Source: Desulfamplus magnetovallimortis (lineage in GTDB: Bacteria > Desulfobacterota > Desulfobacteria > Desulfobacterales > Desulfobacteraceae). From it: a DNA stretch of 35,598 nt. The notes below the pieces were generated by a model that saw nothing but the letters and a program-made list of their open reading frames with translations, had not been told where the DNA came from and searched no databases. The position numbers and the translations under genes are program-made. This document shows positions 2,479 to 29,767 of this stretch, piece after piece (position 1 is the stretch's first letter; the number at the start of each line of letters is the position of its first letter). The DNA lies in assembly GCF_900170035.1 (NCBI RefSeq), contig NZ_LT828543.1:61147-96744 (forward strand), written 5' to 3'.

Positions 2479-2739
2479 ATGTCATTAAACTCTAAACACG
2501 CAAAAACGCTTAGAAAGATATATGAAAAACCAACTCATGCAAATATTGTATGGACAGATATTATCAATTTACTGGAAGCATGCGGTGCTGATATCTTTCA
2601 ACGTCAGGGATCGAGGGTTTGCATCAAACTTGGTAATCAGAGAGCGGTTTTCCACTCGCCTCATCCTCAAAAAGAAGCGGTTAAAGGTGCAGTCAATGAC
2701 ATTAGGGCGTTTTTGAAAAAAGCAGGAATTCAGCCATGA
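2479..2739 (+). CDS. hicA: HicA-family mRNA interferase toxin
   Basis: An 86-residue protein with the HicA double-stranded-RNA-binding-like fold pattern: WTDIINLLEACGA at 25-37, then QGSRVCIKL at 43-51, FHSPHP at 58-63 and a C-terminal IRAFLKKAGIQP. HicA toxins cleave mRNA to stop growth when unbound by HicB. The canonical GSH catalytic histidine is replaced here by GSR (R46); H59 and H62 in FHSPHP are the only histidines well placed to replace it. This looks like a HicA subgroup with GSR rather than a dead gene, since the open frame is intact. The stop overlaps the hicB start by 4 bases (ATGA), indicating coupled translation. Confidence 0.85.
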   Translation: MSLNSKHAKTLRKIYEKPTHANIVWTDIINLLEACGADIFQRQGSRVCIKLGNQRAVFHSPHPQKEAVKGAVNDIRAFLKKAGIQP

Positions 2740-3095
2740 GTAAAACAAATTTGATTACATATAAAGGCTATATTGGCGAAATCAGTTTTGACAAGGATTC
2801 AAAAATATTTTATGGACACGTTGTCAACACAAAAGATACTATTACATTTCAGTCAGAAAATGCTAAAGAGCTTGAAAAAGAATTTCAGGTATCTGTAGAT
2901 ACATATCTGGATTTTTGCAAAGAGCTTGGTGAACTTCCAGAAAAGCCATATTCAGGTAGGTTTGTATTGAGATTGTCGCCAGATGCTCATCGCAGTGTTG
3001 CACTTGCCGCTCAGGCTGCTAATCAAACCCTTAATAAATGGGCAGCTCAACATTTAATTCAAAAAGCAGAGCAAGAACTTCAAGGTTTAAATTAG
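2736..3095 (+). CDS. hicB: HicB-family antitoxin
   Basis: A 119-residue antitoxin partner of the upstream toxin. The N-terminal part (about residues 8-60) is the HicB partial RNase-H-like fold, with ITYKGYIGEISFDKDSKIFYGHV and DTITFQSENAKELEKEF being typical. The C-terminal segment (about 74-112, FVLRLSPDAHRSVALAA...) reads as an Arc/MetJ-type ribbon-helix-helix DNA-binding domain, so the complex probably represses its own promoter. Its start overlaps the hicA stop (ATGA at 2736-2739). The toxin-first order is the usual one for hicAB. Confidence 0.9.
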   Translation: MSKTNLITYKGYIGEISFDKDSKIFYGHVVNTKDTITFQSENAKELEKEFQVSVDTYLDFCKELGELPEKPYSGRFVLRLSPDAHRSVALAAQAANQTLNKWAAQHLIQKAEQELQGLN

Positions 3096-4434: not shown

Positions 4435-4611
4435 ACTCAAAATCGACACCTATGATCTTGTAAGCCTTGTCAACACTGTCTGAATCAGGATTCCCAAGAT
4501 TAACAAAGATAAGGCAGGATTATCTATCCTGAGCATCCTATCCATCCTGGTTATCCTGGTTCAGACAACTGCAATGACTTCGGAAAAAGCATTAAAATGT
4601 CGATTTTGAGT
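4435..4611 (+). repeat. F1 MITE-like element, copy B
   Basis: A complete 177-bp copy. ACTCAAAATCGACA (4435-4448) and TGTCGATTTTGAGT (4598-4611) are perfect 14-bp terminal inverted repeats. The element is flanked on both sides by ATCT (4431-4434 and 4612-4615), a 4-bp target duplication. The interior carries the CTGAATCAGGAT...ATCCTGGTTCAGAC palindrome. No reading frame of note lies inside. Confidence 0.9.
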
Positions 4612-5180
4612 ATCTATCGGGGCAAAAATTTATTTTGCCACCTACATTTCACAAAAATCAATCTTGATAAATCTTTAAAAAGTCTGATTTCCCCCCTTAT
4701 CAACTGCAACACTCCCTCTCCAACTTGTAATCCTTTTTGGCTTGACTCCGACCATCTCCGTTCATGAAATTGCGTATGAAAATCTCTATAACTGTATGTT
4801 TTTATAAAAGTTTTCACTCTTTCGATTTTGGCGGCTATCCACCATGTCCGTTATATTGGCATTTATATGGCAAAGTATAAAATTTCATAGTATCCAATTG
4901 TTTTTTAGGAAATGATAAAAAAGCTGTTTTTTTAGGAATAGCGTGCTTTATCAATACCATAACTCTCTATAATCTGTTTTATAATGGCATATTAGCTGAC
5001 ACACGTTTGACATAATGATTAGGATTCTATATATTATTATCCTTAGTTTGGATTTGCAGGATGTTTCTCAATTCACAATTAAAAAACTTTATCAGGCATC
5101 CTTCATATCGGTTCCTAAGTAATTTGTACCAAATTTATGGAGGGTGATAAAGTTTACAAGATTGTTTTTAAGGGTATTTT
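4612..5180. other. Gene-free stretch before the ABC importer operon
   Basis: It holds a decayed F4 module at about 4738-4855 (ending TTTTGGCGGCTATCCACCATGTCCG) and a solo F2-like end GGCATCCTTCAT at 5095-5106. That F2-like end is bracketed by the inverted repeat AACTTTATCA (5085-5094) and TGATAAAGTT, about 60 bases before the first permease gene. That inverted repeat could be an operator or only a repeat remnant. The short minus-strand reading frame at 4614-4817 is repeat-derived. No gene is supported. Confidence 0.55.
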
Positions 5181-12931: not shown

Positions 12932-13244
12932 ACTCAAAATCGACATCTTATTGCTTTTTCAGAAGTTCTTAGCAGTTGTCTGAATCAGGATAACCAGGAT
13001 GGATAGGATGTTCAGGATAGATAATCCGGCATCTTTCATTTCCCAGTTTACAATTTCCCGAAAAGAATGCCCGTTTTTCGGGGATACTGTTCTGGAAAGT
13101 GTAAGATACTGTTCTGAAAAGTGTAAAGTACTTTCTGTATGATATGAAGGATGCCGATAATCCTGCCTTATCTTGTTAATCCTGGGAATCTTGATTCAGA
13201 CAGTGTTGACAAGGCTCACAAGATCATAGGTGTCGAATTTAATG
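12932..13244 (-). repeat. F1 element copy C, interrupted by F2
   Basis: ACTCAAAATCGACA starts at 12932 and the degenerate other end TGTCGAATTTAATG finishes at 13244. The interior matches other F1 copies but is split by a 128-bp F2 element. It ends seven bases from the stop codon of the MASE3 kinase. With the two flanking pieces it explains the whole gap 12884-13251. Confidence 0.85.
13028..13155 (+). repeat. F2 MITE-like element inside F1 copy C
   Basis: 128 bp with ends GGCATCTTTCAT and ATGAAGGATGCC. It is flanked by the perfect 8-bp direct repeat GATAATCC (13020-13027 and 13156-13163). Removing the element and one repeat rebuilds the F1 interior seen in copies D and E. It contains a tandem 22-bp duplication (GATACTGTTCTG(G/A)AAAGTGTAA, about 13083-13126). 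Confidence 0.9.
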
Positions 13245-15383: not shown

Positions 15384-18350
15384 TTAATAGGCAACTGTAT
15401 CAATCCTGAATATTGCACCATCCACCTTTTTTTTGGCATTAAAGGTGGGGTTGGCATTGAGGTTAAGTATTATCCTTTTTCCATCAGGTCGCTTTATGCA
15501 CATTATGTAATTTTTAAGGGGTTTTTCAGTGTCAAGTATTAAGGCAAGAGGTGTTTTCTCAAGGGGAATTGTTTTGTCGTCAAGATCTGTTATTCCGAAT
15601 TTTTTGGAGTTGATCTTCATTTTAAGGAGTGTGGAGCGCTGGATACCAAGAATATCTTCAACATGTTTGTTGACAAAAATTATCTTGCCGTCTCTATTCG
15701 TCATTATTGTTGCAGCAGGACTTCCTTCAAGAATGGAAAGAAGAAGATTGTGCTGAATCTCCCATGCAAGTTCAGCGTTTTTCTGGTCAGTTATCTTAAC
15801 CATGGTCAGAACAACACCTTCAACCTGTTTCCTGTCGTTTATAAACGGGAGCATTCTCTGGAGAAACCAGTCACTATTGTGTTTGATGGTCTTTATCAGG
15901 GGTTTTCCATCTTTAATAAGTTTTTTTGTATCTTGAGTAAGAGTTGTCAACATTGGAAGATTAAGATCTGTTATTGGTCTTCCAATATCCTGTTCAAGAA
16001 GGTTTATCTCACTTGTCATTGCAGAGGTGAATTTGCGGATACAGAGATTCTTGTCAAGAAAAATGGTGGGAATATCGGAGCTTGTCAAAAGGTTGTCCAT
16101 GTCAGTATTTAATTCCGTCAACTCAAGCACCTTGTTCTGGTATTCGGCATTGACAGTGTTAAGCTCTTCATTGACTGACTGAAGCTCCTCATTTGTTGAC
16201 TGAAGCTCCTCATTTGCAGCAAGAAGCTCTTCGTTTGTGGCCTGAAGTTCTTCAATTGTGGTTTGAAGGTTTTCCCTTGTAAACTGCACCTCCCGCTCAA
16301 GATCCTCAATCCTCTCTTCTGCAAGATAGTTTCTTGAATCTATTTTGACTGGTAGTTCAATATCTCTCTTTTTGCTGTTCCGGGTGATGCTGATGACAAA
16401 AAGGTGATTTTTTTTCTCTTTTTCCTCTGTGAGCAGATCCACAGTCAGATCCAGCTCAATCGTCTTTTTACCTGACGCAACCTTAATATTGCTGAAGGTT
16501 ACAGATTTGTTCTCTTTGCGAACACGTTGGATGGCCGATGATATGGAGAGTGAGAGTTCATTGGGAAGGAGGGCAAGGATGTCAAGGGAAGAGTTGCCTT
16601 TGGGTATTTTAAGAAGAGTTTCCGTTTTGCCAAAGGATTGAACAAGCTCCCTTGTCTCATTGATCACAAGAACAATATCAACAACCTTGTTTAGCAGATT
16701 ATGGTAATATTTTTCCTGACTTGCATATCTTGTTTTTTTTATGGAGTCTGTTCTCTCTTCAAAGGCAGCATTTGCTGATGAATATGGATAGAGTTTTTTG
16801 GGCTGTTTTACAAACGGCATGGAGACAGCAATATTGCCGGGATGTGTATGTTTATAGATTCTGTTTTTATTGTCAATATCGCTGAATGCATCTTCAACTG
16901 CAATAAGGGTTTCACTGTTACCTAGGAAAAGAAAACCATTTTTCTGGAGAATATAGTTTATTGTATTGAATATTTTTTTCTGGAGAACCGGCTGAAAATA
17001 GATGAGAAGATTCCGGCAGACAATCATGTCTATCTTGGTAAATGGAGGGTCATTAATGATATTGTGAACAGCAAATATAACCATCTGGCGTATTGATTTT
17101 TTGACCCTGTAGCTTCCCGGGATTTTATCAAAATACTTGCTCAAATGCTCCACATCAATATCTGCGGCAATACTTTCAGGGTAGGTTCCTGCCCCTGCAA
17201 ACTCTATTGCCTGCTGGTCTATGTCTGTTGCAAATATCTTTACTTCAAGGTCATTTGCTCCAATATTTTGCTCTTTATCCCTGTCAGATGTTACAGCGTC
17301 GAGGTGATCCTGTATAAGCATTGCAATGGAGTAAGCCTCCTCCCCTGTGGAGCTGCCGATATCCCAGACCCTTAACTGGGGAGGATTTCTTTTTTTTGCA
17401 GTGGCAATTATCTGTGATATTACATTTTTATCAAGGGATTTAAATGCCTCTCTATCCCTGAAAAACTTTGTAACCCCGATGAGCAGATCCTTGAAAAGGT
17501 AATGTATCTCCTGTGGTGTCTGCTGGATATATGATATGTACTCCTCAATGTCAGAAACCTGTACAAGACCCATGCGCCTTTCTATCCTGCGTATTACGGT
17601 AGCGGGTTTGTAGTAGCTGAAATCGACTCTGGTTTCTGCTTTAAGGATTGAGAAAAGTTTTGCAAAACTGTTCTCCTCCTTCTTGATAACCTCAAGTGGC
17701 TCCTCGGGAAGGGATATGCGGGGATGGCTGATAAATTTAAGAAGCTGGGCAGGCATCTTTTCCGGAGGAAGGATAAAGTCTGCAAGACCTGTTGCTATGG
17801 CGCATCTTGGCATTCCGTCAAATTCTGCTGACTCCTCATTCTGTACAAATACAGTACCACCTTCGGCCTTTATTGCCCGCAGCCCCCTTGTTCCATCACT
17901 GCCTGTACCCGACAGAATAATACCAATTGCTCTCTCACCCTGATCTTCTGCAAGGGATCTGAAAAAGATATCTATGGGAAGGTTTAGCCCCTGACGCTCG
18001 CTCTGTTCTGATAAAAAAAGCCGTCCGCGCATGGTTGTCATGTTCATTCTTGGGGTAATAAGATAAATATGGTTGGCTTCCATTACCATTCGATCTTCTG
18101 CACGGCAAACTGTCATATCTGTATTTTTTGCAAGCAGTTCAACCATCATGCTTTTATAATCAGGTGATAGGTGCTGGATAATGACAAATGCAATCCCGGT
18201 CTCCTGTGGAGTATTGTTAAAAAAGTGCTGTAATGCCTTCAACCCTCCTGCTGAAGCACCTATCCCGACGATATATGATGGCTTGCTTGAGTTGTCGGAT
18301 GAGATCGTCTCTCTGTTTTCTTCCATTGCGGATGATGTTTCAGATGTCAT
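15384..18350 (-). CDS. CheB-CheR-PAS fusion signalling protein, paralogue 1
   Basis: A 988-residue soluble protein. Residues 25-205 form a CheB methylesterase domain with the catalytic triad S33 (GIGASAGG), H60 and D152 (GTGSDGT). Residues about 225-490 form a CheR methyltransferase with SAM motif RVWDIGSSTGEEAYS (327-341) and CRNLLIYF (445-452). A heptad coiled coil of NEELQ repeats is at about 675-755, followed by two PAS domains (about 755-865 and 870-988). The usual CheB receiver is absent. Such fusions methylate and demethylate glutamates, but no receptor, CheA or CheW is present here, so the target is unknown. It lies 47 bases behind a receiver gene and is likely co-transcribed with it. 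Confidence 0.93.
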   Translation of the reverse strand: MTSETSSAMEENRETISSDNSSKPSYIVGIGASAGGLKALQHFFNNTPQETGIAFVIIQHLSPDYKSMMVELLAKNTDMTVCRAEDRMVMEANHIYLITPRMNMTTMRGRLFLSEQSERQGLNLPIDIFFRSLAEDQGERAIGIILSGTGSDGTRGLRAIKAEGGTVFVQNEESAEFDGMPRCAIATGLADFILPPEKMPAQLLKFISHPRISLPEEPLEVIKKEENSFAKLFSILKAETRVDFSYYKPATVIRRIERRMGLVQVSDIEEYISYIQQTPQEIHYLFKDLLIGVTKFFRDREAFKSLDKNVISQIIATAKKRNPPQLRVWDIGSSTGEEAYSIAMLIQDHLDAVTSDRDKEQNIGANDLEVKIFATDIDQQAIEFAGAGTYPESIAADIDVEHLSKYFDKIPGSYRVKKSIRQMVIFAVHNIINDPPFTKIDMIVCRNLLIYFQPVLQKKIFNTINYILQKNGFLFLGNSETLIAVEDAFSDIDNKNRIYKHTHPGNIAVSMPFVKQPKKLYPYSSANAAFEERTDSIKKTRYASQEKYYHNLLNKVVDIVLVINETRELVQSFGKTETLLKIPKGNSSLDILALLPNELSLSISSAIQRVRKENKSVTFSNIKVASGKKTIELDLTVDLLTEEKEKKNHLFVISITRNSKKRDIELPVKIDSRNYLAEERIEDLEREVQFTRENLQTTIEELQATNEELLAANEELQSTNEELQSVNEELNTVNAEYQNKVLELTELNTDMDNLLTSSDIPTIFLDKNLCIRKFTSAMTSEINLLEQDIGRPITDLNLPMLTTLTQDTKKLIKDGKPLIKTIKHNSDWFLQRMLPFINDRKQVEGVVLTMVKITDQKNAELAWEIQHNLLLSILEGSPAATIMTNRDGKIIFVNKHVEDILGIQRSTLLKMKINSKKFGITDLDDKTIPLEKTPLALILDTEKPLKNYIMCIKRPDGKRIILNLNANPTFNAKKKVDGAIFRIDTVAY

Positions 18351-18397: not shown

Positions 18398-18811
18398 TTA
18401 TCGAGAAGTATCATCAATGGCAATACATTTTGTTAGAATTTGTTTCACCCTGGTAACTGTCTCCTTCATGTCAAAGGGCTTTGTAATATAGGCACATGCT
18501 CCCATCTGATGTGCTTTTTTTATTTTTTCCTCATCTTCAAGTATGGAGAATATACAGACAGGTATTTTTTCGAGATCAGGGTCATTTTTCAGGTTTGCAA
18601 GTATTTTAAATCCGTTTTCATCAGGCATGAATATATCAAGAAGAATAATGTCAGGCATGATTTTTTTTGCCATGATCATTCCTTCCCTGCCATTTTTGGC
18701 AAGGGAAGATATTATATTCTCCCTATGAAAAAGTTTTTCCAGAACTATCCTGTTAACCTCATCGTCATCAATTATCAGGACAGTGGGTTGCGACTTGTCT
18801 TTGTCACTCAT
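18398..18811 (-). CDS. Stand-alone response regulator
   Basis: A single CheY-like receiver domain of 137 residues. The start at 18811 is chosen for AGAGG seven bases upstream, giving MSDKDKSQPTVLIIDDDE; the frame extends 20 codons further upstream without a better ribosome site. The acidic pocket is D15-D17, the phosphorylated residue is D59 in IILLDIFMPDENG, S89 is in the switch position and K111 is in ITKPFD. It lies between the two CheB-CheR fusions on the same strand, with 144 bases on one side and 47 on the other. It may replace the receiver domain that these CheB units lack. Confidence 0.92.
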   Translation of the reverse strand: MSDKDKSQPTVLIIDDDEVNRIVLEKLFHRENIISSLAKNGREGMIMAKKIMPDIILLDIFMPDENGFKILANLKNDPDLEKIPVCIFSILEDEEKIKKAHQMGACAYITKPFDMKETVTRVKQILTKCIAIDDTSR

Positions 18812-18955
18812 CTGTTTACCTCTTAAAAAGTAAAGGTACGGAACCTTTTTGAAGTATTTGTCCCTTTGCATTTATGGAAAGGGTTCTGAGGGGGTATTAT
18901 AACTTCAATTGAGCCGGATATTCAAAAAAAGATACAATCAAAGTAAATATCTTCT

Positions 18956-21913
18956 TCATAAGTCATATGCCACAGGATCTATCCGGAAAACAGCCCCATC
19001 CACATTTTTTTTAGCGTTAAATACAGGGTTGGCATTGATATTGAGTACGATCCTTGTGTTATCTTCCCTTGTAAGATGTACAATATATTTTTCAAGGGGA
19101 GTTCCGGTTGAAAGGATTTTTGTCATAGGTTCTTCCTCCGAAAAGAGAGGTTTGTCATCAAGATCCGTGAACCTGAATTTTGAGGAGTTTATTTTCATTC
19201 TTAAAAGTCTCTTGCGCTCCATGCCCAGAATTTTCTCAGCGCACTGGTTGACCAATATGATCTTTCCCTCCCTGTTGACAAGTATGGTTGGAGAAGGGCT
19301 TGCCTCAATAACTGAAATCATGAACTTGTGCTGCTTATCAAGGGCTATCTCGGCATTTTTCTGATCAGTTATCTTTACAAGTGTAAGCACAACGCCCTCT
19401 ATGGTATCTTTTTCGTGGATAAATGGCAAAATTCTCTGGAGATACCACTCATCCCCATGTCGTATCACCTTTTCTGTGGCAACTCCATTTTTTATCACCT
19501 GTGCCGCTTCTTTTTTCAGATTCCGGAACATGGAAACATTAAGATCTGTAAATGGTCTGCCTATATCCTGGTCAAGGAGATTGAGTTCATGGGTTACAGC
19601 AGTCGTAAATTTTCTAATACAGAGCTTTTTATCAAGGAATATGGTTGAAATATCCGAACTGCTCATGAGGTGATCCATGTCGGTATTAAGCTCTGTAAGC
19701 TCAAGAACCTTGTTCTGGTACTCAGCATTTACGGTGTTCAACTCTTCGTTAACAGATTGAAGCTCCTCGTTTGTTGACTGAAGTTCCTCATTGGCAGCCA
19801 GAAGCTCCTCATTTGTTGCCTGAAGCTCTTCATTTGTTGTCTGAAGCTCTTCAATGGTTGCCTGAAGATTCTCCCTTGTGAAGAGAACTTCACGCTCCAG
19901 ATCATTTATCCTCTCGTCTGCAAGGCTGTTTTGTATCTCTGATGTTGCTGTGGGTGTTGGCAGGCAAGGCTCAATAATTTCGTCAATGGAGATCATGAAC
20001 ATAAATGTATTTTTACCATCATCAGAACGGGAAATGCCATTGACAATGAGATTGACCCGAACATCTCCATCTTCATCATTTATCTTTATATTACTATAGA
20101 CAACCCTTTCCTTGTCCTTTCTGACCTTCTGCATGGCTGATGAAACCGCAAGTGACAACTCCCTTGGCAGCATTGAAAGAATATCAAGGGATACATTTCC
20201 CATTGGAATGGAGAGAAATTTTTTTGTGTTGCCAAAGGATTGCACAAGTTCCCTTGTTTCATTCACCACAATCAGTGTATCCACCATGTTATTGATAAGG
20301 TTTTGATAGTACTTTTCATTACTGGCATTACGAGCCGGAACCATACTGTCCGGACGGTTCTCATAGGCAGCATGGCTTGATGAGAAAGTAACATCCCTGG
20401 TGAGAGTGGTTCTGGGCAGAATTGGTGGCACCGGCATTTCACCGTGACGCTTGTGCCTGTAAAGGCGCTGTTTGGTATTTATATCTTCAAATGTATCTTC
20501 AACAGCAACAACGGTTTCACTGTTACCCAGAAGGAGAAACCCATTCTGGTGCAGAATATAGTTAAATGTGTGAAATATTTTCTTTTGCAGAACCGGTTGA
20601 AAATAGATCAGAAGGTTTCTGCATACAATAAGATCAATTCTTGTAAAAGGCGGATCGTTTATTATATTGTGCACCGCAAAAATAACCATCTGACGTATGG
20701 ACTTCTTGACCCTATAACCTCCGGGCATTTTGTCAAAGTATCTGCTTAAGTATTCCACCTCCACATCTGCTGCAATACTGTCAGGATATGTGCCAAGCCC
20801 TGCAAATTCAATTGCCTGCTGGTCAATATCTGTGGCAAAAATTTTTACATCAACATCAAGGTTGTTGGTATCAAGGTAAGATTGAATAAGGATTGCGACA
20901 GAATAGACCTCCTCACCTGTTGAACTTCCCACATCCCAGACTCTTAACTGTGCAGGAGTTCTTTTTCTGGCTGCTTCAATTATTGCAGGTATGGCATTTT
21001 CTGCAAGTGCTTTAAATGCCTCTCTGTCCCTGAAAAATTTTGTCACTCCAATGAGCAGATCTTTAAAAAGCGCAGATATCTCCTCCGGATTCTTGTGGAT
21101 ATATGTCACATATTCGTCAATGCCCGGAACCTGTACAAGGCCCATTCGTCTCTCTATTCTGCGGATAACTGTGGCAGGTTTGTAGTAAGTGAAATCCACA
21201 CGGGTCTTTTTGTTAAGCATGGACATAAGACGGGTAAAGCTGTTCTCTTCTTTTTTGATAACCTCCAAAGGCTCCTCTGGAAGGGATATGCGGGGATGAC
21301 TTATAAACTTAAGAAGTTGTGCTGGCATCTGCTCCGGAGGAAGAATAAAATCAGCAAGCCCTGTGGCAATGGCGCACCTTGGCATACCATCAAATTCGGC
21401 AGATGCCTCATCCTGGACAAAGGCTGTGCCACCTTCTGCCTTTATTGCCCTTAATCCTCTTGTGCCGTCACTTCCTGTTCCGGAAAGAACAACACAGATG
21501 GCTCGCTCGCCCTGGTCCTCGGCAAGGGATCTAAAAAATATGTCAACCGGAAGATTAAGACCCTGTCGTTCCTGCTGGGGAGCAAGAAATAGCTTTCCTC
21601 CCATGGTTGTTATATTTTTTCTGGGAGTGATGAGATATATATGGTTTGCCTTCATGACCATGCCATCTTCTGCCCTGCATACAACCATCTGTGTATTTTT
21701 TGCCAGAAGCTCAACCATCATGCTTTTATAATCAGGAGAGAGATGCTGTATAATGACAAATGTCATTCCAGTTTCAGGTGGCATGTTACTGAAAAACATC
21801 TGGAGGGCTTTAAGTCCCCCTGCTGAAGCCCCCATTCCAACAATGTGAGAAGGTCTGTCCGTATGTTTTGTCAGTTGTTTTTTAGGAGTTTTTTCTCTTT
21901 TTTGTTCAGCCAT
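18956..21913 (-). CDS. CheB-CheR-PAS fusion signalling protein, paralogue 2
   Basis: A 985-residue paralogue of the fusion at 15384-18350 with the same domain order. CheB triad S30, H57, D149; CheR SAM motif RVWDVGSSTGEEVYS; CRNLLIYF; NEELQ coiled coil; two PAS domains ending FNAKKNVDGAVFRIDPVAYDL. The coiled coil is one heptad longer than in paralogue 1, having both ELQTTNE and ELQATNE. High similarity over the full length indicates tandem duplication around the receiver gene. It is the first gene of the minus-strand signalling block; its promoter should lie in 21914-22180. Confidence 0.93.
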   Translation of the reverse strand: MAEQKREKTPKKQLTKHTDRPSHIVGMGASAGGLKALQMFFSNMPPETGMTFVIIQHLSPDYKSMMVELLAKNTQMVVCRAEDGMVMKANHIYLITPRKNITTMGGKLFLAPQQERQGLNLPVDIFFRSLAEDQGERAICVVLSGTGSDGTRGLRAIKAEGGTAFVQDEASAEFDGMPRCAIATGLADFILPPEQMPAQLLKFISHPRISLPEEPLEVIKKEENSFTRLMSMLNKKTRVDFTYYKPATVIRRIERRMGLVQVPGIDEYVTYIHKNPEEISALFKDLLIGVTKFFRDREAFKALAENAIPAIIEAARKRTPAQLRVWDVGSSTGEEVYSVAILIQSYLDTNNLDVDVKIFATDIDQQAIEFAGLGTYPDSIAADVEVEYLSRYFDKMPGGYRVKKSIRQMVIFAVHNIINDPPFTRIDLIVCRNLLIYFQPVLQKKIFHTFNYILHQNGFLLLGNSETVVAVEDTFEDINTKQRLYRHKRHGEMPVPPILPRTTLTRDVTFSSSHAAYENRPDSMVPARNASNEKYYQNLINNMVDTLIVVNETRELVQSFGNTKKFLSIPMGNVSLDILSMLPRELSLAVSSAMQKVRKDKERVVYSNIKINDEDGDVRVNLIVNGISRSDDGKNTFMFMISIDEIIEPCLPTPTATSEIQNSLADERINDLEREVLFTRENLQATIEELQTTNEELQATNEELLAANEELQSTNEELQSVNEELNTVNAEYQNKVLELTELNTDMDHLMSSSDISTIFLDKKLCIRKFTTAVTHELNLLDQDIGRPFTDLNVSMFRNLKKEAAQVIKNGVATEKVIRHGDEWYLQRILPFIHEKDTIEGVVLTLVKITDQKNAEIALDKQHKFMISVIEASPSPTILVNREGKIILVNQCAEKILGMERKRLLRMKINSSKFRFTDLDDKPLFSEEEPMTKILSTGTPLEKYIVHLTREDNTRIVLNINANPVFNAKKNVDGAVFRIDPVAYDL

Positions 21914-22341: not shown

Positions 22342-22508
22342 ACTCAAAATCGACACCTATGATCTTGTAAGCCTTGTCAACACTGTCTGAATCAGGATTC
22401 CCAAGATTAACAGGATAAGGCAGGATTATCTATCCTGAGCATCCTATCCATCCTGGTTCAGACAACTGCAATAACTTCTGAAAAAGCAATAAGATGTTGA
22501 TTTTGAGT
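22342..22508 (+). repeat. F1 MITE-like element, copy D
   Basis: A complete 167-bp copy, ACTCAAAATCGACA (22342-22355) to TGTTGATTTTGAGT (22495-22508). It begins one base after the second F4 unit. The flanks TAAG and AAGA do not give a clean 4-bp duplication unless the right end is taken one base shorter. Confidence 0.88.
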
Positions 22509-22520
22509 AAGAAAATATAG

Positions 22521-22627: not shown

Positions 22628-22728
22628 AAAATCCCCGTACTTTAAAGTTCTGGGGGACTTTCATGCATCGTTGTGATACCCTCGCTATCATGAGATTTTT
22701 TCATCGAGGAATATCTGGAGGAAAAAAG

Positions 22729-25386
22729 ATGACTCAAAGTCACCAAAAAGTTGATCTCTTCGCCCATGGTTCTACCTGGCTCCTGGCGGATTTTCATCTG
22801 CATACCAGGGCTGATAATGAATTTGAGTATACAGGTGAAGATAACAGTTTTGTTTCCGATTATATATCCAGATTGAAGGCTGCAAAAATAAGGATTGGTG
22901 TCATCTCCAATCATAACAAATTTGATAAAAACGAGTTCAACGCATTACGGAAAAAAGCGTGCAAAGAAGATATCTGCCTCTTACCCGGGGTCGAGTTGTC
23001 ACTCAACGACGGTTCCAATGGTATTCACACCATTATTGTATTTAGTGATCAGTGGCTTAAAAACGGAAATGACTACATCTCCCCTTTCATTACCAGTATG
23101 TTTCCTGGCAAGGCTGAGTCAGAGTATCAGCATGAAAACGGGCGGAGCGATAAAAACATTCTTCAGGTGGTCGAAGAACTGGAAAAAACAGCCCGTGACT
23201 ATTTTCTCATTTTTGCCCATGTTGAGCAAAAAAACGGCTTATGGAAGGAGATGGACGGCGGAAAAATCGGAGATTTCAAAGAGAGCCGTTATCATAAGGT
23301 CAGGATGCGAACCCTTGGATTTCAAAAAGTCAGGACACATGATGTACCGGATAGAGATAGAGTCTGCCGGGTCAAAGTGAAACGCTGGCTTGATGGCTGG
23401 TATCCTGCCGAAGTGGAAGGATCGGACTGTAAATCCATTGATGGGATCGGCAATGGGAATCCGTGTTATCTCAAGCTCGGGGCAGCCTCATTTGATGCAG
23501 TCAAGTTTGCCCTCATCGACAAGGAGAACCGGGTGGCCACTCAGCCGGTACAACACCCCCATTCCCATATTCGTAGAATCCGCTTTACAGGCGGGACACT
23601 GGACGGAAAAAAACTTAATTTTTCACCGGAACTAAACACTTTGATCGGCATTCGTGGCAGTGGCAAGTCTTCTATTCTGGAAGTACTCCGATATGGGCTT
23701 GAAATCGCTTTTGGAGAGAAAGCCGGAGATCGGGACTACAAGCAGGAACTTGTGGGATTCACCATGGGAAGCGGAGGAAAAATTGAGATCGATGCCACAG
23801 ACCGATATGGGCAGTCGTACACGATTCGGCGGGTCTGGAAGGAGCCTTTTTCTGAGGTTATGATCGACGGCAGGCTCCAGCCTGGAGTTTCCATACGGGA
23901 AACGGTACTCCATAAACCGATCTATTTCGGGCAAAAAGATCTTTCCTGCACTGGGGAAGGCTTTGAAAAAGATCTGGTGGACAAGCTGCTTGGCTCGAAA
24001 CTGGAGGATGTCCGCCGCAGAATTGACCAGCAGAAACGTAAAGTGACACAAACGGTGGACAGAATGCTCAAAATTAGCAATGTTCAAGAGCAGATTGAAG
24101 AGCAAAAACAGATCCGGCAGGATACCGAACATCGGCTGAAACTGTATAAAGAGCATGGCGTTGAAGAGAAACTGCAAAAACGGCTGGATTTTGACAAGGA
24201 TGCCCGAACCATTGAAAAAGGCATCCGGTTAACCAGGGATTTCGTATCCGATCTGGAGGCGCTGCTGGCCAGACATGAGGATGAGATACGTAATTTTAAA
24301 GGATATACATCCAAATTTAATGCAGAATTGTTCGACCGCTTCTACACACACTATGAGATCAATATCTCTTTTCTCGATCTGTCCAAAAAATGGTTGAGTG
24401 AACAAAATATGGCGCAAAAATCACTCTCGAAATGCCAGAACGAACTTTCGGACATCCGAAAAGGCATGGTGGAAGAATTTGCGGTAATCGAGCGAAATTT
24501 ATCCGAACAGTTAAAAGGAAGTGGCTCTCAAAACATCAATCCAGATGAATTTTTGCAATTAAAGAAACAATTGACCTTTGCAACTCAGCTTATTACCGAG
24601 CTTGAAAAACAGTCCAAACAACAGACTGGATGGCGTGACTCGCTTTTAATTGAACTGACGGCATTGAACGATCTTTGGCTTGAAGAGTTCAACCTCATCA
24701 AGAATGAGCTGGATAAAGTCGGTGCTGACGACTCTCCTCTGTCAATTGCCTCAGGGTATAAAGAGGATAAGCAGGCCTTTCTCTCTTTTATGAAGGAGAT
24801 GTTCAAAGGCAGTGGCATTCGGGAGGCCACCTATCAGAGGATTGTGGATCAATATGTCGATTTCTTAGCTATCTATAAAGATTTCGAGAGTGCCCAAAGG
24901 TTATTTGGAAACAATCCGCAAATCTTGGTGGATCTGTTTATTAAAGGCCTGAAAAGTCTGTTGACCTATCAGACGCCAAACAAATTCAAAATGATCTATC
25001 GCGGTAAAGAGTTGCAACATCATTCGCTGGGACAGCGGGCTTCAGCGTTAATTCTATTTGTTCTCAGCCAAAAAGAAAACGACCTGATCATCATCGATCA
25101 ACCGGAAGATGATCTGGATAATCAGACCATCTATGAAGATGTGATCAAATTGATCCGGGAGATGAAACCGAATGTCCAATTCATTTTTGCCACCCACAAT
25201 CCAAATATACCGGTTCTGGGTGATGCGGAACTGGTTCACGCATGCTCATTTGCCAATGACAAAATCCAGGTAGAATCCGGCAGTGTGGACAACCATCAAA
25301 CCCAGCAGACCATTATAAGAATTATGGAAGGCGGCAAAGAGGCTTTTAACCGCCGCAAGGAGATTTATCAGATATGGAAACCGTAG
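22729..25386 (+). CDS. PHP-domain / SMC-like AAA ATPase (TrlF-like)
   Basis: An 885-residue protein. ATG 22729 is chosen because GGAGG (22717-22721) is seven bases upstream; the frame is open further back only through repeat DNA. The N-terminal PHP phosphoesterase domain has HLH at 23-25, NHN at 61-63, E89 (PGVEL), H100 and FAHVE near 163-166, which are metal ligands typical of PHP nucleases or phosphatases. An ABC/SMC-type ATPase follows: Walker A GIRGSGKSS (307-315), Q-loop Q402, a long coiled coil about 425-700, signature-like LGQRASA, Walker B LIIIDQ (786-791), EDDLDN and switch H823. The design resembles RecF/SMC-like defence ATPases and the family I recall as TrlF. The second gene overlaps by 13 bases. 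Function is unproven. Confidence 0.85.
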   Translation: MTQSHQKVDLFAHGSTWLLADFHLHTRADNEFEYTGEDNSFVSDYISRLKAAKIRIGVISNHNKFDKNEFNALRKKACKEDICLLPGVELSLNDGSNGIHTIIVFSDQWLKNGNDYISPFITSMFPGKAESEYQHENGRSDKNILQVVEELEKTARDYFLIFAHVEQKNGLWKEMDGGKIGDFKESRYHKVRMRTLGFQKVRTHDVPDRDRVCRVKVKRWLDGWYPAEVEGSDCKSIDGIGNGNPCYLKLGAASFDAVKFALIDKENRVATQPVQHPHSHIRRIRFTGGTLDGKKLNFSPELNTLIGIRGSGKSSILEVLRYGLEIAFGEKAGDRDYKQELVGFTMGSGGKIEIDATDRYGQSYTIRRVWKEPFSEVMIDGRLQPGVSIRETVLHKPIYFGQKDLSCTGEGFEKDLVDKLLGSKLEDVRRRIDQQKRKVTQTVDRMLKISNVQEQIEEQKQIRQDTEHRLKLYKEHGVEEKLQKRLDFDKDARTIEKGIRLTRDFVSDLEALLARHEDEIRNFKGYTSKFNAELFDRFYTHYEINISFLDLSKKWLSEQNMAQKSLSKCQNELSDIRKGMVEEFAVIERNLSEQLKGSGSQNINPDEFLQLKKQLTFATQLITELEKQSKQQTGWRDSLLIELTALNDLWLEEFNLIKNELDKVGADDSPLSIASGYKEDKQAFLSFMKEMFKGSGIREATYQRIVDQYVDFLAIYKDFESAQRLFGNNPQILVDLFIKGLKSLLTYQTPNKFKMIYRGKELQHHSLGQRASALILFVLSQKENDLIIIDQPEDDLDNQTIYEDVIKLIREMKPNVQFIFATHNPNIPVLGDAELVHACSFANDKIQVESGSVDNHQTQQTIIRIMEGGKEAFNRRKEIYQIWKP

Positions 25387-26537
25387 AAATTTTAAAGATC
25401 CTTGCTCAGGGTGAGGACAGCAAAAACCAGTTCAAAAAGGATTTCACCAATGGCGATGCTTTGGCTGCCGAACTGGTAGCCTTTAGCAATACACTGGGTG
25501 GTAAAATTTTTGTTGGTGTAGATGATGATGGTGAAATTGTGGGTCTGGAAACAGAGGATATTCAGCGAATCAATCAACTTTTGTCCAATACGGCCAGTCA
25601 GAATGTAAAACCAGCCATAAACCCATTGACAGAAATTTCTACAATTGAAAAAAAACGTATCCTCATTGTTGAAGTGGCCAAAGGAAACAATAAACCCTAT
25701 CAGGATAAAAACGGTGTGATTTGGGTTAAAAGCGGAGCGGACAAGCGAAGAGCCACAGCTCGAGAAGAAATTCAACGGTTTTTTCAGGAATCCGGGATGA
25801 TACACGCAGATATCACTCCGGCCAACATGACCATAGCCGATCTTGATATGCCTTATTTCACCTCATTTTTTCAGAAACGGTATGGCAAATCTCTTGAGAA
25901 TCAACAGGTTTCTCTTGAAAAGCTCATCATGAATTTAAATCTGGGCAAAGATGGTATCTTAAATATTACCGGGGCATTATTGTTTTCCAATACCCCTGAA
26001 ATCCGTCTTCCCTCTTATATCGTTAAAGCTGCGGCATTCCCGGGAACAAGCATTGCGAGAGAAGAGTACATTGATAGTCGAGATATTACCGGAAAATTAT
26101 CGAATATTTTTCAGCAGGCCATTGGTTTTCTTATGGATAACACAAAGCATGTCCAGGGCGAACAAGGGATCAACAGTCCAGGAAAACCTGAAATTCCAAA
26201 AATTGTATTGGAAGAGCTTGTCACCAATGCCCTTGTGCATAGGGACTATTTTATTTCTGCTCCGGTTCGGATATTTGTCTTTTCTGATCGAATCGAAATC
26301 ATTAGCCCTGGTCATCTTCCGAATAATTTGACAGTGGAAAACATCAAAGCTGGAAATTCTAACACCAGGAATCCTGTTTTAGCCTCATTTGCCTATCAAA
26401 TTTTACCCTATCGCGGTTTTGGTTCAGGGATTTTAAGGGCGCTGGAGAATTATCCGGATATTGAATTTATCGATGACAGATATGGCAACTTATTTAAATG
26501 TATTGTTTGGCGACAATCGACACCTATGATCTTTTAA
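25374..26537 (+). CDS. AlbA_2 (Schlafen-like) + HATPase_c_4 protein, 3' end altered
   Basis: A 387-residue protein. Residues about 14-135 form an AlbA_2/Schlafen-type nucleic-acid-binding domain (AAELVAFSNTLGGKIFVGVDDDGEIVG; VIWVKSGADKRRATAREE). Residues about 270-375 form a GHKL-type ATP-binding domain (EELVTNALVHRDYF, IEIISPGHLP, GFGSGI). Database names for such proteins include 'ATP-binding protein' and 'RecG-like transcriptional regulator'. ATG 25374 lies inside the upstream gene's last codons, with AAGGAG at 25357-25362, so translation is coupled. The last seven residues (QSTPMIF) and the stop come from F1 copy F, so the original C-terminus, possibly including a winged helix, is lost or shortened. 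Confidence 0.87.
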   Translation: METVEILKILAQGEDSKNQFKKDFTNGDALAAELVAFSNTLGGKIFVGVDDDGEIVGLETEDIQRINQLLSNTASQNVKPAINPLTEISTIEKKRILIVEVAKGNNKPYQDKNGVIWVKSGADKRRATAREEIQRFFQESGMIHADITPANMTIADLDMPYFTSFFQKRYGKSLENQQVSLEKLIMNLNLGKDGILNITGALLFSNTPEIRLPSYIVKAAAFPGTSIAREEYIDSRDITGKLSNIFQQAIGFLMDNTKHVQGEQGINSPGKPEIPKIVLEELVTNALVHRDYFISAPVRIFVFSDRIEIISPGHLPNNLTVENIKAGNSNTRNPVLASFAYQILPYRGFGSGILRALENYPDIEFIDDRYGNLFKCIVWRQSTPMIF

Positions 26538-26779
26538 GCCTTGTCAATAATGTCTGAATCAGGATGCCCAGGATTATCAGGATAAGACAAGATTATCTAT
26601 CCTGAACATCCTACTGCTTCTTCAAGTTTAAACTGTCGGGTGACTTTTAAGGCTTTTCAAAGGTTCAAGGCATTTTCTACCCGACAATCAAACCTTGAAA
26701 GAACACTGCTAATCTTGGTTATCCTGACTCTGACAAATGCAACAACTTCTAAAAAAACAATAAAATGTCGATTTTGACG
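26509..26779 (+). repeat. F1 element copy F, interrupted by F5
   Basis: The left end is degenerate (GGCGACAATCGACA at 26509-26522) and overlaps the last codons of the AlbA_2 gene. The right end TGTCGATTTTGACG finishes at 26779. The interior matches other F1 copies except for about 96 extra bases at 26613-26708. It fills the gap to the convergent reductase gene. Confidence 0.85.
26613..26708. repeat. F5 element inside F1 copy F
   Basis: ACTGCTTCTTCAAG...AACTGTCGGGTGACTTTTAAGGC...AAAGGTTCAAGGCATTTTCTACCCGAC...AACCTTGAAAGAACACTG. It shares the CTGTCGGG and CAAAGGTTCAAGGC blocks with 14888-14932. It contains no F3 unit. The ends are imperfect inverted repeats and a clean target duplication is not visible (possibly CTA). 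Confidence 0.65.
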
Positions 26780-26796
26780 GGTATCTACCACGCACA

Positions 26797-28101
26797 TTAC
26801 AAAAACTTCTCAAGATATTTATAATTAGGCGTAAGATTACCTTTGTATACAATCACAGCCTTTTTTATCTCAGGAAGCAGTCCTGATGATTCAAGGTCTG
26901 AATCATAGTCTGCACCAAGGATGCTGGCAACAAAGGGAGTGAGCTGATTACTGAAAAAAGTGGAAGAGTCGTTTGGAAGCTCACATGGCAGATTATCAAC
27001 TGCAAGCACAACAATACCATCACCCTTGTGTCCATCTGTAATTTTTTGATTAAGAGGATCCACAAGATAGGCAGGCATACCGGAATCAGTTGATTTTACA
27101 TTGCACTCAACAGAGCCGTTGGTGTCGCATGTGATGTCTGCAATTCCACACAATTTTGGCTCTGGATACTTTTCACAAAGTGCTTTCAGGCCTTCCCAGG
27201 TTACAAATTTAGGATATTGCTTATCCCAGTAAACAGCATTTATCAAGACAGTGCAAAATGGCAGATATTGATCAAAGATACTTTCATATCTTTCAGGATG
27301 GGTAAAATACTCATTGAGGTCAAACTCTTTGCCATCTGTTTTTTTAACAAGATCCTTTTCCTTGAATATTGTGACATAAACGGTCTTGGCATCAAAATCA
27401 CCTGATTTAACAAGATTTTCAAGCTCTTCAGGTTCAACTCTTTTGCTGGGCAGACAATCTATTATCTGCTGAGCACCGCCTGAAACATTCCCGTATCCAA
27501 GAATTCCAAAAACCACAGGTGCAAGTTGATCTGGAAAACCGTCTTTTTTTATCTCGTTACCAACTTTTTCAAGCTCTTTTTTTGCATCTTCAACCGAGCT
27601 GTATTGATGAGCTGGCAAACATTTTTTAAATGGAGTGGAAATCCCCTTGTTCTCCCAATACTCACCCATCAGATGCAGGATATCAATTGCACCTGCATCA
27701 CCTGCATAACGCCCAAAATAGATAAGCCTGCGATTTTTTTCATCTGTAATCTTTTCATAATCAATAAGAGTTGAACCTCCTGCCATTATTTTTTTCAGAA
27801 GGGGCATACCAGATGGTTGTCCCTTTATGGTATGGGAAAAGAAAATGTATGTTTTTCCATCTAATAGTTTCTCTTCAGGAATCTCTTTTACACCGAAAAT
27901 CACATCGCCCTGTTCCATGCTGCTGCAAAGCTTTGCACCTGCCTTTTCATAGTCAGATGCACTGAAAAATCTCTTTTCAGACTCTTCAACAAATGCTTCT
28001 GCTCCCGTCTGTTCAACTATTTTTTTTATATCATCAGGCACAATGGGAGCTCTTTTTTCCCAGATGTTTTTGTCTTCAGCCCTTATAAGCAATGATTTCA
28101 T
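26797..28101 (-). CDS. Lysine-2-oxoglutarate reductase-like protein (saccharopine forming)
   Basis: A 434-residue protein matching the N-terminal LKR half of eukaryotic AASS/LKR-SDH. An alanine-dehydrogenase-like N-terminal domain (IRAEDKNIWEKRAPIVPDD at 6-24, IFFSHTIKGQP at 86-96) is followed by a Rossmann domain with PVVFGILGYGNVSGGAQ at 195-211. The predicted reaction is condensation of lysine and 2-oxoglutarate to saccharopine with NAD(P)H, or the reverse. It lies 46 bases downstream of the saccharopine dehydrogenase gene on the same strand. GGGGGAA precedes ATG 28101. Direction of flux (lysine breakdown or synthesis) cannot be read; with asd present, a catabolic role is a reasonable guess. 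Confidence 0.87.
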   Translation of the reverse strand: MKSLLIRAEDKNIWEKRAPIVPDDIKKIVEQTGAEAFVEESEKRFFSASDYEKAGAKLCSSMEQGDVIFGVKEIPEEKLLDGKTYIFFSHTIKGQPSGMPLLKKIMAGGSTLIDYEKITDEKNRRLIYFGRYAGDAGAIDILHLMGEYWENKGISTPFKKCLPAHQYSSVEDAKKELEKVGNEIKKDGFPDQLAPVVFGILGYGNVSGGAQQIIDCLPSKRVEPEELENLVKSGDFDAKTVYVTIFKEKDLVKKTDGKEFDLNEYFTHPERYESIFDQYLPFCTVLINAVYWDKQYPKFVTWEGLKALCEKYPEPKLCGIADITCDTNGSVECNVKSTDSGMPAYLVDPLNQKITDGHKGDGIVVLAVDNLPCELPNDSSTFFSNQLTPFVASILGADYDSDLESSGLLPEIKKAVIVYKGNLTPNYKYLEKFL

Positions 28102-28147
28102 AGTTCCCCCTGCAAGTTATTCAGGAATTTTCTTTATCATATTTATT

Positions 28148-29482
28148 TCACGAATTTGTCAAAACTGTCCTTTTTTCACAAAACCTGATGTTAAGCCTAT
28201 CAAGTTCATTCAGTACCGGCTTGTAAATCTGGGGATGAACGGGAATACAAACACCCTTAAGATCAATTTTTTCTTCAGCAATAAGTCTTGCAGCAATGGC
28301 AGCAGGCAGGCCAACTGTTTTGGACATGGAGCTGTCTCCTCCCGGTGTTCCGCTGTCCACAAGTGTTGCCATGACCTTCTCTTTTTTGCCATCAGGATAT
28401 TCTCCTGTGAACTCATGGTGCTGGAGAAGCAGATCAACTTCGCCGTCATCGTAGGTAAGTTTCTGTTTTAATACATGGGCAAACATCTCAAAGACAGAGA
28501 CGGTTCTGTCTATATCAAGGCATTCACTGCTGAACATGCCTAACCACTGCAATTTTTTAAGTGTCAGTGAGTATTCCGGAATTTTAAGGTATTCCGCCAC
28601 ATCTTTTTTAATATTTTTACCGTCGCTGTTGATCATGTTGGCAATGACCTGGCATGGCGGGGTATCTGACATGTTAAACATCATCTTGCGATTCAGAAGT
28701 CCAAGTTTTTTGAAAAAATCCCAGGTTTCGCAATATCCGATGTTTCTTAATGTGCCGCGGTAGATGGTTTTTGCAGATTCAATACCGTAAACTTTAAGAT
28801 AAGGCAAAGCATCACGGTTTACATAAGCCTCAAAAACACCTGAACCAGGAATGTCTGTGAGCCAGTAGTGTTCAAAAAGCTTGTTGCCAGGAACTTCAAT
28901 GATTTTACCGTTTTTCAGATATCTGCCGTCATTATTGGCCGCCATCATTGCTCCTTCAGGACTCCATGAAAATTTGTATCCCAAAGGATTATTATTGTTG
29001 GCCATGGCCGGAAGGCCCCCGCAATATGAGTAGAAGCTTGTGACAGTGCCGCCTGCGCCCTTTATTTCATCAATGATTTTCATGGCGGCCATATGGTCAA
29101 CTCCTGGATCAACCCCGATTTCATTTAGGAAAATCAAACCTTTTTCCCTGGCCTCACTATCCATTGCCTGCATCTCATCCTTTACATATGAGGCTGTTAC
29201 AAGATGTTTTTTATGATCAAGGCAAAGTCTTGCAACCATTGGATGAAGTGTCCAGGGCAGTAGGCTTATGACAATGTCTGCTTCGGCAACTCTCTTACCC
29301 AGCACTTCACGATTGTTTACATCCATTGCTATGGCAGTGCCCGAAGGGTCATTTCCAATAAGCTCCTCGGCTTTCTCTTTCATCTGGTCTGCAAGGGTTA
29401 TTTCTATATCTGGAGATGCCAGAAGATAACGTACAAGGGGTCTTGCAACAAGTCCTGCACCCAATATCAATATTTTTTTCAT
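28148..29482 (-). CDS. Saccharopine dehydrogenase (glutamate-forming type)
   Basis: A 444-residue protein of the Lys9/SDH family. The Rossmann start is KKILILGAGLVARPLVRYL at residues 2-20. Other family features are ADIVISLLPWTLHPMVA, NEIGVDPGVDHMAAMKIID and SYCGGLPA. Predicted to split saccharopine to glutamate and aminoadipate semialdehyde with NAD(P)+. ATG 29482 is chosen for the GGGAGGG run just upstream; the frame extends seven codons further to a TTG with no ribosome site. First gene of a two-gene unit with the reductase. Confidence 0.9.
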   Translation of the reverse strand: MKKILILGAGLVARPLVRYLLASPDIEITLADQMKEKAEELIGNDPSGTAIAMDVNNREVLGKRVAEADIVISLLPWTLHPMVARLCLDHKKHLVTASYVKDEMQAMDSEAREKGLIFLNEIGVDPGVDHMAAMKIIDEIKGAGGTVTSFYSYCGGLPAMANNNNPLGYKFSWSPEGAMMAANNDGRYLKNGKIIEVPGNKLFEHYWLTDIPGSGVFEAYVNRDALPYLKVYGIESAKTIYRGTLRNIGYCETWDFFKKLGLLNRKMMFNMSDTPPCQVIANMINSDGKNIKKDVAEYLKIPEYSLTLKKLQWLGMFSSECLDIDRTVSVFEMFAHVLKQKLTYDDGEVDLLLQHHEFTGEYPDGKKEKVMATLVDSGTPGGDSSMSKTVGLPAAIAARLIAEEKIDLKGVCIPVHPQIYKPVLNELDRLNIRFCEKRTVLTNS

Positions 29483-29591
29483 AATCCCTCCCCCGTAAAT
29501 CAATACCTTGTATTTTTATCTGTGTTTGTGTGTTGCTACCTACAGGACAACATTACACATGACCTGCAATACTGTCAATCATTATTTAAAT

Positions 29592-29767
29592 ATTCAAAAT
29601 CGACATCTTATTGCTTTTGCAAAGTTATTGCAGTTGTCTGAACCAAGATAACCAGGATGGATAGGATGCTCAGGATAGATACTCCTGCCTTATCTTTGTT
29701 AATCTTGGGAATCCTGATTCAGACAGTGTTGACAAGGCTTACAAGATCATAGGTGTCGAGGTTGAGT
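29592..29767 (-). repeat. F1 MITE-like element, copy E
   Basis: ATTCAAAATCGACA (29592-29605) to TGTCGAGGTTGAGT (29754-29767), reverse orientation, flanked by AAAT on both sides (29588-29591 and 29768-29771), a 4-bp target duplication. It occupies most of the 348-bp gap between the saccharopine dehydrogenase start and the TrmB-like gene end, so the promoter of the saccharopine genes must lie in 29483-29590 or within the element. Confidence 0.88.

Follow-up and report, generated by a model that had tools for sequence, protein, structure and literature searches.

The stretch of DNA analysed here, 35,598 nucleotides of a Desulfamplus magnetovallimortis contig (NZ_LT828543.1, positions 61,147 to 96,744; hereafter the window), carries two overlapping genes which, judging from their sequences, are a real and intact homologue of trlF-trlG, a pair already named as part of the Photorhabdus Temperature Restricting Locus (TRL). 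Many relatives of this pair lie within or beside defence operons based on DNA modification, and we propose that trlF-trlG is probably a phage-triggered growth-arrest module, working either alone or as an auxiliary or guard cassette in restriction-modification (R-M) and BREX operons. The new point is the nesting of the pair in several unrelated modification systems, with sites that in related operons are empty or filled by something else. The initial annotation of the window had suspected an undescribed defence system and did not recognise the exact pair as a named one; the suspicion of defence gained weight from the relatives, while the reading as an unnamed pair had to be rejected, since the two genes are trlF and trlG of the TRL operon.

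The trlF homologue occupies 22729..25386 of the plus strand, on which all features of the pair lie, and encodes 885 amino acids with a PHP domain and an SMC/ABC-type ATPase with a coiled coil (NCBIfam NF045780, AlphaFold2, Foldseek); a GGAGG ribosome-binding site, read from the sequence at 22717..22721, supports ATG 22729 as its start. The trlG homologue starts at ATG 25374 and ends at 26537 (25374..26537), encoding 387 amino acids with AlbA_2 and HATPase_c_4 domains identified by Pfam. Both open reading frames (ORFs) proved intact as initially annotated, and their coupling by a 13-nucleotide overlap was confirmed at 25374..25386. Against the TrlF family model NF045780 the first protein scored 551.5 bits, the cut-off being 350, with residues 13-881 aligned to the whole profile (1-944 of 944), and it is the single TrlF above this cut-off in its own genome.

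In Photorhabdus the TRL operon consists of trlR-trlF-trlG, and its TrlG carries AlbA_2 at residues 14-128 and HATPase_c_4 at 298-365 (PMC7554251). In the window TrlG these two Pfam domains lie at almost equal positions (14-127 and 296-360), so that the TRL architecture, trlF followed by an overlapping trlG with both domains, is reproduced. Two Photorhabdus TRL loci were recovered, L065 and L068, both with overlaps of 22 nucleotides. Read ORF by ORF, L065 has the published order polA, trlR, trlF, trlG, dsbA (polA and dsbA recognised by eye), and its TrlF and TrlG are respectively 49% and 59% identical to those of the window. The window differs from TRL in its surroundings and in that no trlR was found: Photorhabdus TrlR gave no tblastn match there at E≤1, and among the loci then compared it matched only at L035, L065, L068 and L076. 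Two genomes, Photorhabdus bodei (G210, L068) and G211 (L073), each possess two TrlF above the family cut-off, on different contigs.

Relatives of TrlG were taken from genome contigs, keeping the best 80 of at least 558, and the 44 pairs found among them are therefore near relatives of the window pair. TrlF is encoded directly upstream in 43 of the 55 complete relatives of at most 420 residues, and is present for one of the remaining 25, which are longer or cut by a contig end. The genes of all 44 pairs overlap in the same frame relation, by 10, 13, 19, 22 or 28 nucleotides when lengths are taken from the first possible start codon, and the 13-nucleotide overlap recurs in 9 of the 43 complete short paired relatives. 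TrlF and TrlG have also diverged in parallel: across 40 pairs their distances correlate with r=0.947, a value reached in none of 2000 permutations (shared host descent uncorrected). In a phylum sample of 198 genomes, TrlF was detected at 1e-60 in 17, the own genome included, with a TrlG-like neighbour at 7 of the 16 other TrlF loci. The adjacency on which the initial annotation had based its proposal thus holds in this clade, and is less common for TrlF at large.

Defence genes were counted around 13 pair loci on longer contigs (15 had been prepared, and the near-duplicates L068 and L118 were dropped with their controls before the count), taking as neighbours the proteins of at least 120 residues encoded within 6 kb and as controls stretches of the same contigs. 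With PADLOC at 1e-15, the 98 neighbours matched 187 families and the 131 control proteins 6, a ratio that overstates the difference because families and not proteins are counted and one protein matches several models. Neighbour ORFs were called mechanically, longest first, and some are antisense (for example L048:3414-5699); when 20 neighbours, hand-picked mostly by size, were scanned singly at 1e-30, 11 were matched. The pair lies inside or beside a modification-based defence operon in 17 of the 44 cases, corresponding to about 13 independent ones, since L049, L052 and L118 come from a single island and L047, L048 and L077 resemble one another. Both counts agree with the suspicion of defence voiced in the initial annotation.

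The operons concerned are of four kinds. Type I R-M accompanies seven pairs (L049, L052, L053, L057, L059, L061 and L118), the Hsd labels having been assigned by BLAST comparison with annotated genes of a Klebsiella plasmid, where identity was in some cases 24-26%, while IIG-type genes accompany five (L046, L047, L048, L051 and L077). A type III system is found once, in the order Mod-TrlF-TrlG-Res (L114). BREX is represented four times: BrxC-PglXI-TrlF-TrlG-BrxH-PglZ in L041, PglXI-TrlF-TrlG in L045, BrxC..PglX-TrlF-TrlG-PglZ-BrxL in L071, and PglX-TrlF-TrlG-PglZ-BrxL in L080, where the two BrxL labels (the L071 protein is 46% identical to that of L080) are based on position and on one BrxL match in a pooled scan. 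In L041, L052, L071, L080 and L114 the pair stands between genes of one operon, with gaps of -31 to 141 nucleotides. The BREX-nested pair of L071 is also, by distance, the nearest relative of the window pair among the 40. Other defence-related neighbours are AIPR, directly upstream of the pair in L040 and L044, Wadjet JetA, directly downstream in L105, and a NACHT protein downstream in L066.

An empty or refilled slot was seen in four operons chosen from hit lists. In E. coli, L199 is a pair-free type I operon of the order HsdR-HsdS-AAA-HsdM, with an HsdR 79% identical to the Klebsiella one, and L203 reads HsdR-TrlF-TrlG-HsdS-AAA-HsdM. In BREX-1, the position between pglX and pglZ that holds TrlF-TrlG in L080 is empty in L201 and L202, and is filled by a PDDEXK nuclease in L200 (L200:12490-13647). 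Neither TrlF nor TrlG was found by tblastn in L199-L202. On an E. coli chromosome, near pitA/yhiN, Tn7-like transposition genes lie beside the type I R-M and TrlF-TrlG operon (L203:2721-18171).

Concerning mobile DNA, a threshold of 1e-5 with no demand on coverage retrieves 1142 plasmid records for TrlF and 98 for TrlG (218 and 87 when 80% of the query is covered); 40 of the 98 TrlG records are conjugative, and the Klebsiella-plasmid version of the pair is a rare one among E. coli genomes (38 of 5426). Only one of 60 viral-contig loci carries both genes side by side, an IMG/VR contig with a TrlF relative and TrlG (L147:10001-13737). A Listeria phage record holds a TrlF relative, with no TrlG found at 1e-15 (L038:10001-12583), and a Serratia plasmid has a TrlF with no TrlG annotated adjacent, the end of which is overlapped by a 178-residue ORF of unknown kind (L037:2588-5699). 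The genome of D. magnetovallimortis itself has two further TrlG paralogues, 57% (G000:C2:347654-348796, L180) and 43% identical (G000:C19:2708-3838, L181); TrlF was looked for beside both, and none was found. The neighbourhood of the C19 paralogue resembles, by eye, a surface-sugar gene cluster.

The architecture read in the initial annotation, PHP plus SMC ATPase in the first protein and AlbA_2 plus HATPase_c_4 in the second, was confirmed by Pfam and NCBIfam, and the PHP, Walker A, Q-loop, Walker B and switch residues of TrlF that it had listed as intact vary little or not at all across an alignment of 40 selected paired proteins, among which are those of the window. In TrlF, Pfam places AAA_21 above its cut-off and SMC_N below. 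The PHP-type domain, at approximately residues 10-265 (22756..23523), was delimited from residue conservation and from two profiles: the PADLOC Ppl profile matches with 114.5 bits, its best stretch being residues 14-325, and the region matches the profile of TM0559 (2anu), which we take to be a PHP fold, at E=7.6e-6. By motif we assigned H23, H25, H62, E89, H100, H164 and D233 as putative metal ligands; H62 and D233 are conserved in 39 of the 40 proteins, the others in all. The Walker A motif GIRGSGKSS (residues 307-315; 23647..23673) has G307, R309, G310, G312, K313 and S314 identical in 40/40 and S315 in 36/40. In the Walker B and D-loop segment IIIDQPEDDLDN (residues 786-797; 25084..25119) D790 and E793 are present in 40/40, as are Q402, S766/G768/Q769 and H823 elsewhere in the protein. 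The AlphaFold2 model (mean predicted local distance difference test score, pLDDT, 83.0) has long helices forming a coiled-coil arm at residues 412-665 (23962..24723), and its best Foldseek rows are chains of MukBEF, SMC, JetABC and Rad50, with TM-scores to the query of 0.21-0.29 in the first ten. No PHP chain appeared among the 50 Foldseek rows shown for this model, and the PHP assignment of the N-terminus is a prediction from sequence.

In TrlG, the SLFN_AlbA_2 domain covers residues 14-127 (25413..25754; Pfam and profile alignment to SLFN14). A GHKL-type region (26214..26453; Pfam and conservation) comprises E281-Y292 (26214-26249), which we take to be the N box, and HATPase_c_4 at residues 296-360; E281, N285, H289, G350 and G352 are conserved in 40/40 paired proteins. 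With the AlphaFold2 model (mean pLDDT 84.6), Foldseek returned four 3lmm chains first and then mostly human Schlafens. A Pfam scan at E≤0.01 found only these two domains in the 387 residues and no winged helix-turn-helix (wHTH). Such proteins are frequently annotated as RecG helicase, a candidate that we ruled out given that the scan found no helicase domain; HATPase_c_4 simply bears a RecG C-terminal description.

The catalytic set of rat SLFN13 is E205, E210 and D248, of which the second Glu is essential (PMC5862951). When TrlG is aligned by profile to SLFN14 (an E211A entry, with Ala opposite Q19), its E14, Q19, K21 and D51 fall at or near the Schlafen active-site positions, so that the window protein keeps E14 and D51 but has Q19 in place of the second Glu. 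Over the 44 pairs and the window, position 14 is Glu and position 19 Gln in 45/45, and position 51 varies (32 Asp, 12 Asn, one Glu). The same Gln occurs in 12/12 readable short unpaired and 23/23 long TrlG forms and is thus a trait of the clade, independent of pairing; in seven pairs of the phylum sample the second position is Glu in four and Gln in three. TrlG as an ordinary Schlafen RNase was rejected because of this replacement, and for the same reason we favour nucleic-acid binding combined with an ATP-driven switch over RNA cleavage as its predicted activity. Where the initial annotation had stated that AlbA_2 domains bind or cut RNA, cutting therefore appears doubtful here.

A related arrangement has been described: at least 1017 taxa have, in linkage with BREX and related systems, Schlafen RNases to which a minimal histidine kinase and a wHTH are fused (PMC12839542). 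The window TrlG resembles these auxiliaries in that its relatives inside BREX operons likewise combine AlbA_2 with a GHKL domain, but differs from them in lacking a detectable wHTH; a PHP partner is not named for them, the word "PHP" having no occurrence in the main text of that source as available. TrlG-like proteins of 456-527 residues, without TrlF, were observed near type I R-M genes in L089, L095, L110, L112 and L116, and longer forms of this sort are possibly of the Schlafen-kinase-wHTH type.

Genetic data on the locus come from Photorhabdus laumondii, in which a shift to 36 °C induces the TRL operon and growth stops. This arrest depends on TrlG, recessive trlG mutations restore growth, deletion of the operon is tolerated, and no trlF mutations were seen in the suppressor screen (PMC7554251). 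We placed the 11 published TrlG substitution sites on the 40-protein alignment by way of L065, in which all 11 carry the residue given in the publication. Eight of the growth-restoring sites fall in columns that are at least 90% conserved, and their mean conservation is 0.87, compared with 0.69 for all positions; 47 of 10000 random sets reached that mean. The window TrlG has the identical residue at 9 of the 11 sites, and from the conservation at these sites it appears that the residues required for arrest, in both domains, are largely present in it.

The data above directly support what the pair is, its intact motifs, the coupling of its genes, their matched divergence and the link of relatives to defence; beyond this we infer a phage trigger, a nuclease action, a guard role and a function for the window copy. 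In the mechanism that we propose, TrlF would be both sensor and nuclease: its SMC/ABC ATPase, with the coiled-coil arm, would read a DNA-end, nucleotide or anti-restriction signal and license the PHP domain in the manner of E. coli Ppl. TrlG, made in a fixed ratio to TrlF through the overlapping start, would bind nucleic acid by its Schlafen-like AlbA_2 domain, and the GHKL ATPase would switch its state, the active state stopping growth. Since many relatives lie inside several kinds of anti-virus gene clusters, the pair probably serves against phages as an added alarm or a reserve weapon, and an assignment to phage defence is likely from genomic context. In operons of this kind the module might fire once a phage has disabled the host R-M or BREX system, an idea drawn from PARIS and PrrC. 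PrrC, an associate of type I R-M, keeps watch over restriction and sets a toxic partner free. In PARIS (AriA-AriB), likewise, an ABC-type ATPase watches restriction and releases its toxic partner (PMC12839542). The likeness lies in the ABC-type ATPase, the AriA profile matching the C-terminal ATPase part of TrlF; the difference is that no TOPRIM or anticodon-nuclease domain was found in the pair, for which the guard role is a proposal.

The closest comparison for TrlF is Ppl of E. coli (NF042955), in which an SMC-like ATPase likewise comes after an N-terminal PHP domain. According to a review, this system consists of a single gene, whose product is a 3'-5' single-strand PHP exonuclease restrained by nucleoside triphosphates and triggered by phage (PMC12904381), whereas TrlF has an AlbA_2/GHKL partner. 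The window TrlF matches the Ppl profile over both its PHP and ATPase parts (163.6 bits with NCBIfam, in addition to the PADLOC score), but as NF042955 has a cut-off of 1000 bits we did not file it as Ppl, although it may work like Ppl. PADLOC gave no full-length match to a named-system model for TrlF or TrlG; further partial matches of TrlF were to mad3 (66.5 bits) and PDC-M49A (57.8 bits), and TrlG matched Argonaute-linked models weakly (best 49.3 bits). It could thus be imagined that TrlF alone, as a Ppl-like nuclease, attacks the ends of phage DNA once nucleotide pools run low, that TrlG regulates or inhibits it, and that no guarding takes place, the defence neighbours reflecting clustering in islands. 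Such a role would suit the TrlF relatives that exist without TrlG. However, the growth-restoring mutations of Photorhabdus arose in trlG and not in trlF, and since they are recessive and deletion of the operon is tolerated, TrlG looks like the actor and not like an inhibitor; furthermore, the five loci with the pair set within one operon go beyond mere proximity. We therefore regard this explanation as unlikely, though deserving attention.

The published reading of TRL itself, a locus for growth control under stress or temperature and not primarily for defence, agrees with the temperature-induced transcription and arrest in P. laumondii (PMC7554251) and with standalone locations such as that between polA and dsbA in Photorhabdus and that in the window. 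Its patchy distribution in the phylum sample and in E. coli, its carriage on plasmids and with Tn7-like genes, and its insertion in four kinds of modification-based operon are difficult to reconcile with such a function, and we hold this reading to be quite improbable. Very improbable indeed is that the nested pair is no separate module but belongs to the R-M or BREX enzyme, standing in for one of its restriction or maturation components, as its tight integration on both sides in the five nested loci might suggest, given that the host operons retain their own parts (HsdR in L052, Res in L114, PglZ in L041, L071 and L080), that related operons exist without the pair, and that the pair also occurs alone.

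The proposal of a phage-triggered growth-arrest module has in turn to be weighed against several observations. No modification system was assigned at 27 of the 44 pairs (some contigs being short and their neighbours partly annotated), no defence gene was recognised adjoining the window pair when its neighbour ORFs were inspected, and Photorhabdus, represented in the enrichment set only by L065, has no recognised defence system beside that locus. The closest pairs to that of the window have varied partners (BREX, AIPR or none assigned), which leaves no obvious common target to guard. Many relatives of TrlF come without TrlG; a classical RNase is disfavoured by the Gln at the second Schlafen position and by a third position that in 13 of 45 proteins holds Asn or Glu; and since no trlF mutation emerged from the Photorhabdus screen, TrlF need not be the toxic part. 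Finally, the phenotype published for TRL is a temperature-linked arrest (PMC7554251). The word "phage" has no occurrence in the available text of that paper, and among the matches listed in our literature search, in which the TrlF-phage query used the American spelling "defense" and preprints lay outside, we found neither a phage experiment on the pair nor any work linking TrlF or TRL to phage defence. The pair may nevertheless have been described earlier as a conflict system.

A broader version of the growth-arrest proposal is possible, although we advance it tentatively: TrlF-TrlG could be a general, transferable guard or back-up cassette, which occupies a defined slot in unrelated hosts (type I, type III and IIG restriction, and BREX in no fewer than two layouts) and halts the cell upon defeat of the host system, the temperature restriction of Photorhabdus being a misfiring. 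If this were true, a locus described as a brake on growth in the heat would be a widespread immune module, and the existing growth-arrest mutants would offer a genetic handle on how TrlG turns toxic. The PHP-ATPase/Schlafen-like pair would then join PARIS and PrrC among the watchers of restriction, with one cassette serving several unrelated hosts. The natural nested copies, and the related operon with an empty slot in E. coli, make the idea testable in laboratory strains.

In the window itself the pair stands alone, the nearest called genes on either side being on the opposite strand, as initially annotated. The mobile repeats said to surround it are real and flank it on both sides, but they belong to families dispersed over the genome and have no particular tie to the pair; that they bound a mobile element with the pair inside was ruled out, since they are found genome-wide (54 matches listed; 40 of 735 candidates scored). 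Copies in the window lie at 26515-26777, 22342-22517, 4435-4612, 29583-29767 and 13156-13240, and the one behind trlG contains a second repeat of about 95 nucleotides (26611-26707) inserted within it. This copy begins at trlG codon 381, so that the final seven codons and the stop codon are repeat-derived; since most TrlG relatives align only to about residue 380, little or nothing of conserved TrlG has been lost.

Other genes of the window were recognised mainly with Pfam. On the minus strand, adjacent alanine dehydrogenase-like and saccharopine dehydrogenase-like genes occupy 26797-29503, and two CheB-CheR-PAS fusion proteins are encoded at 15384-18350 and 18956-21913, with a small response regulator between them (18398-18871). 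A HicA-HicB toxin-antitoxin pair lies at 2479-3095.

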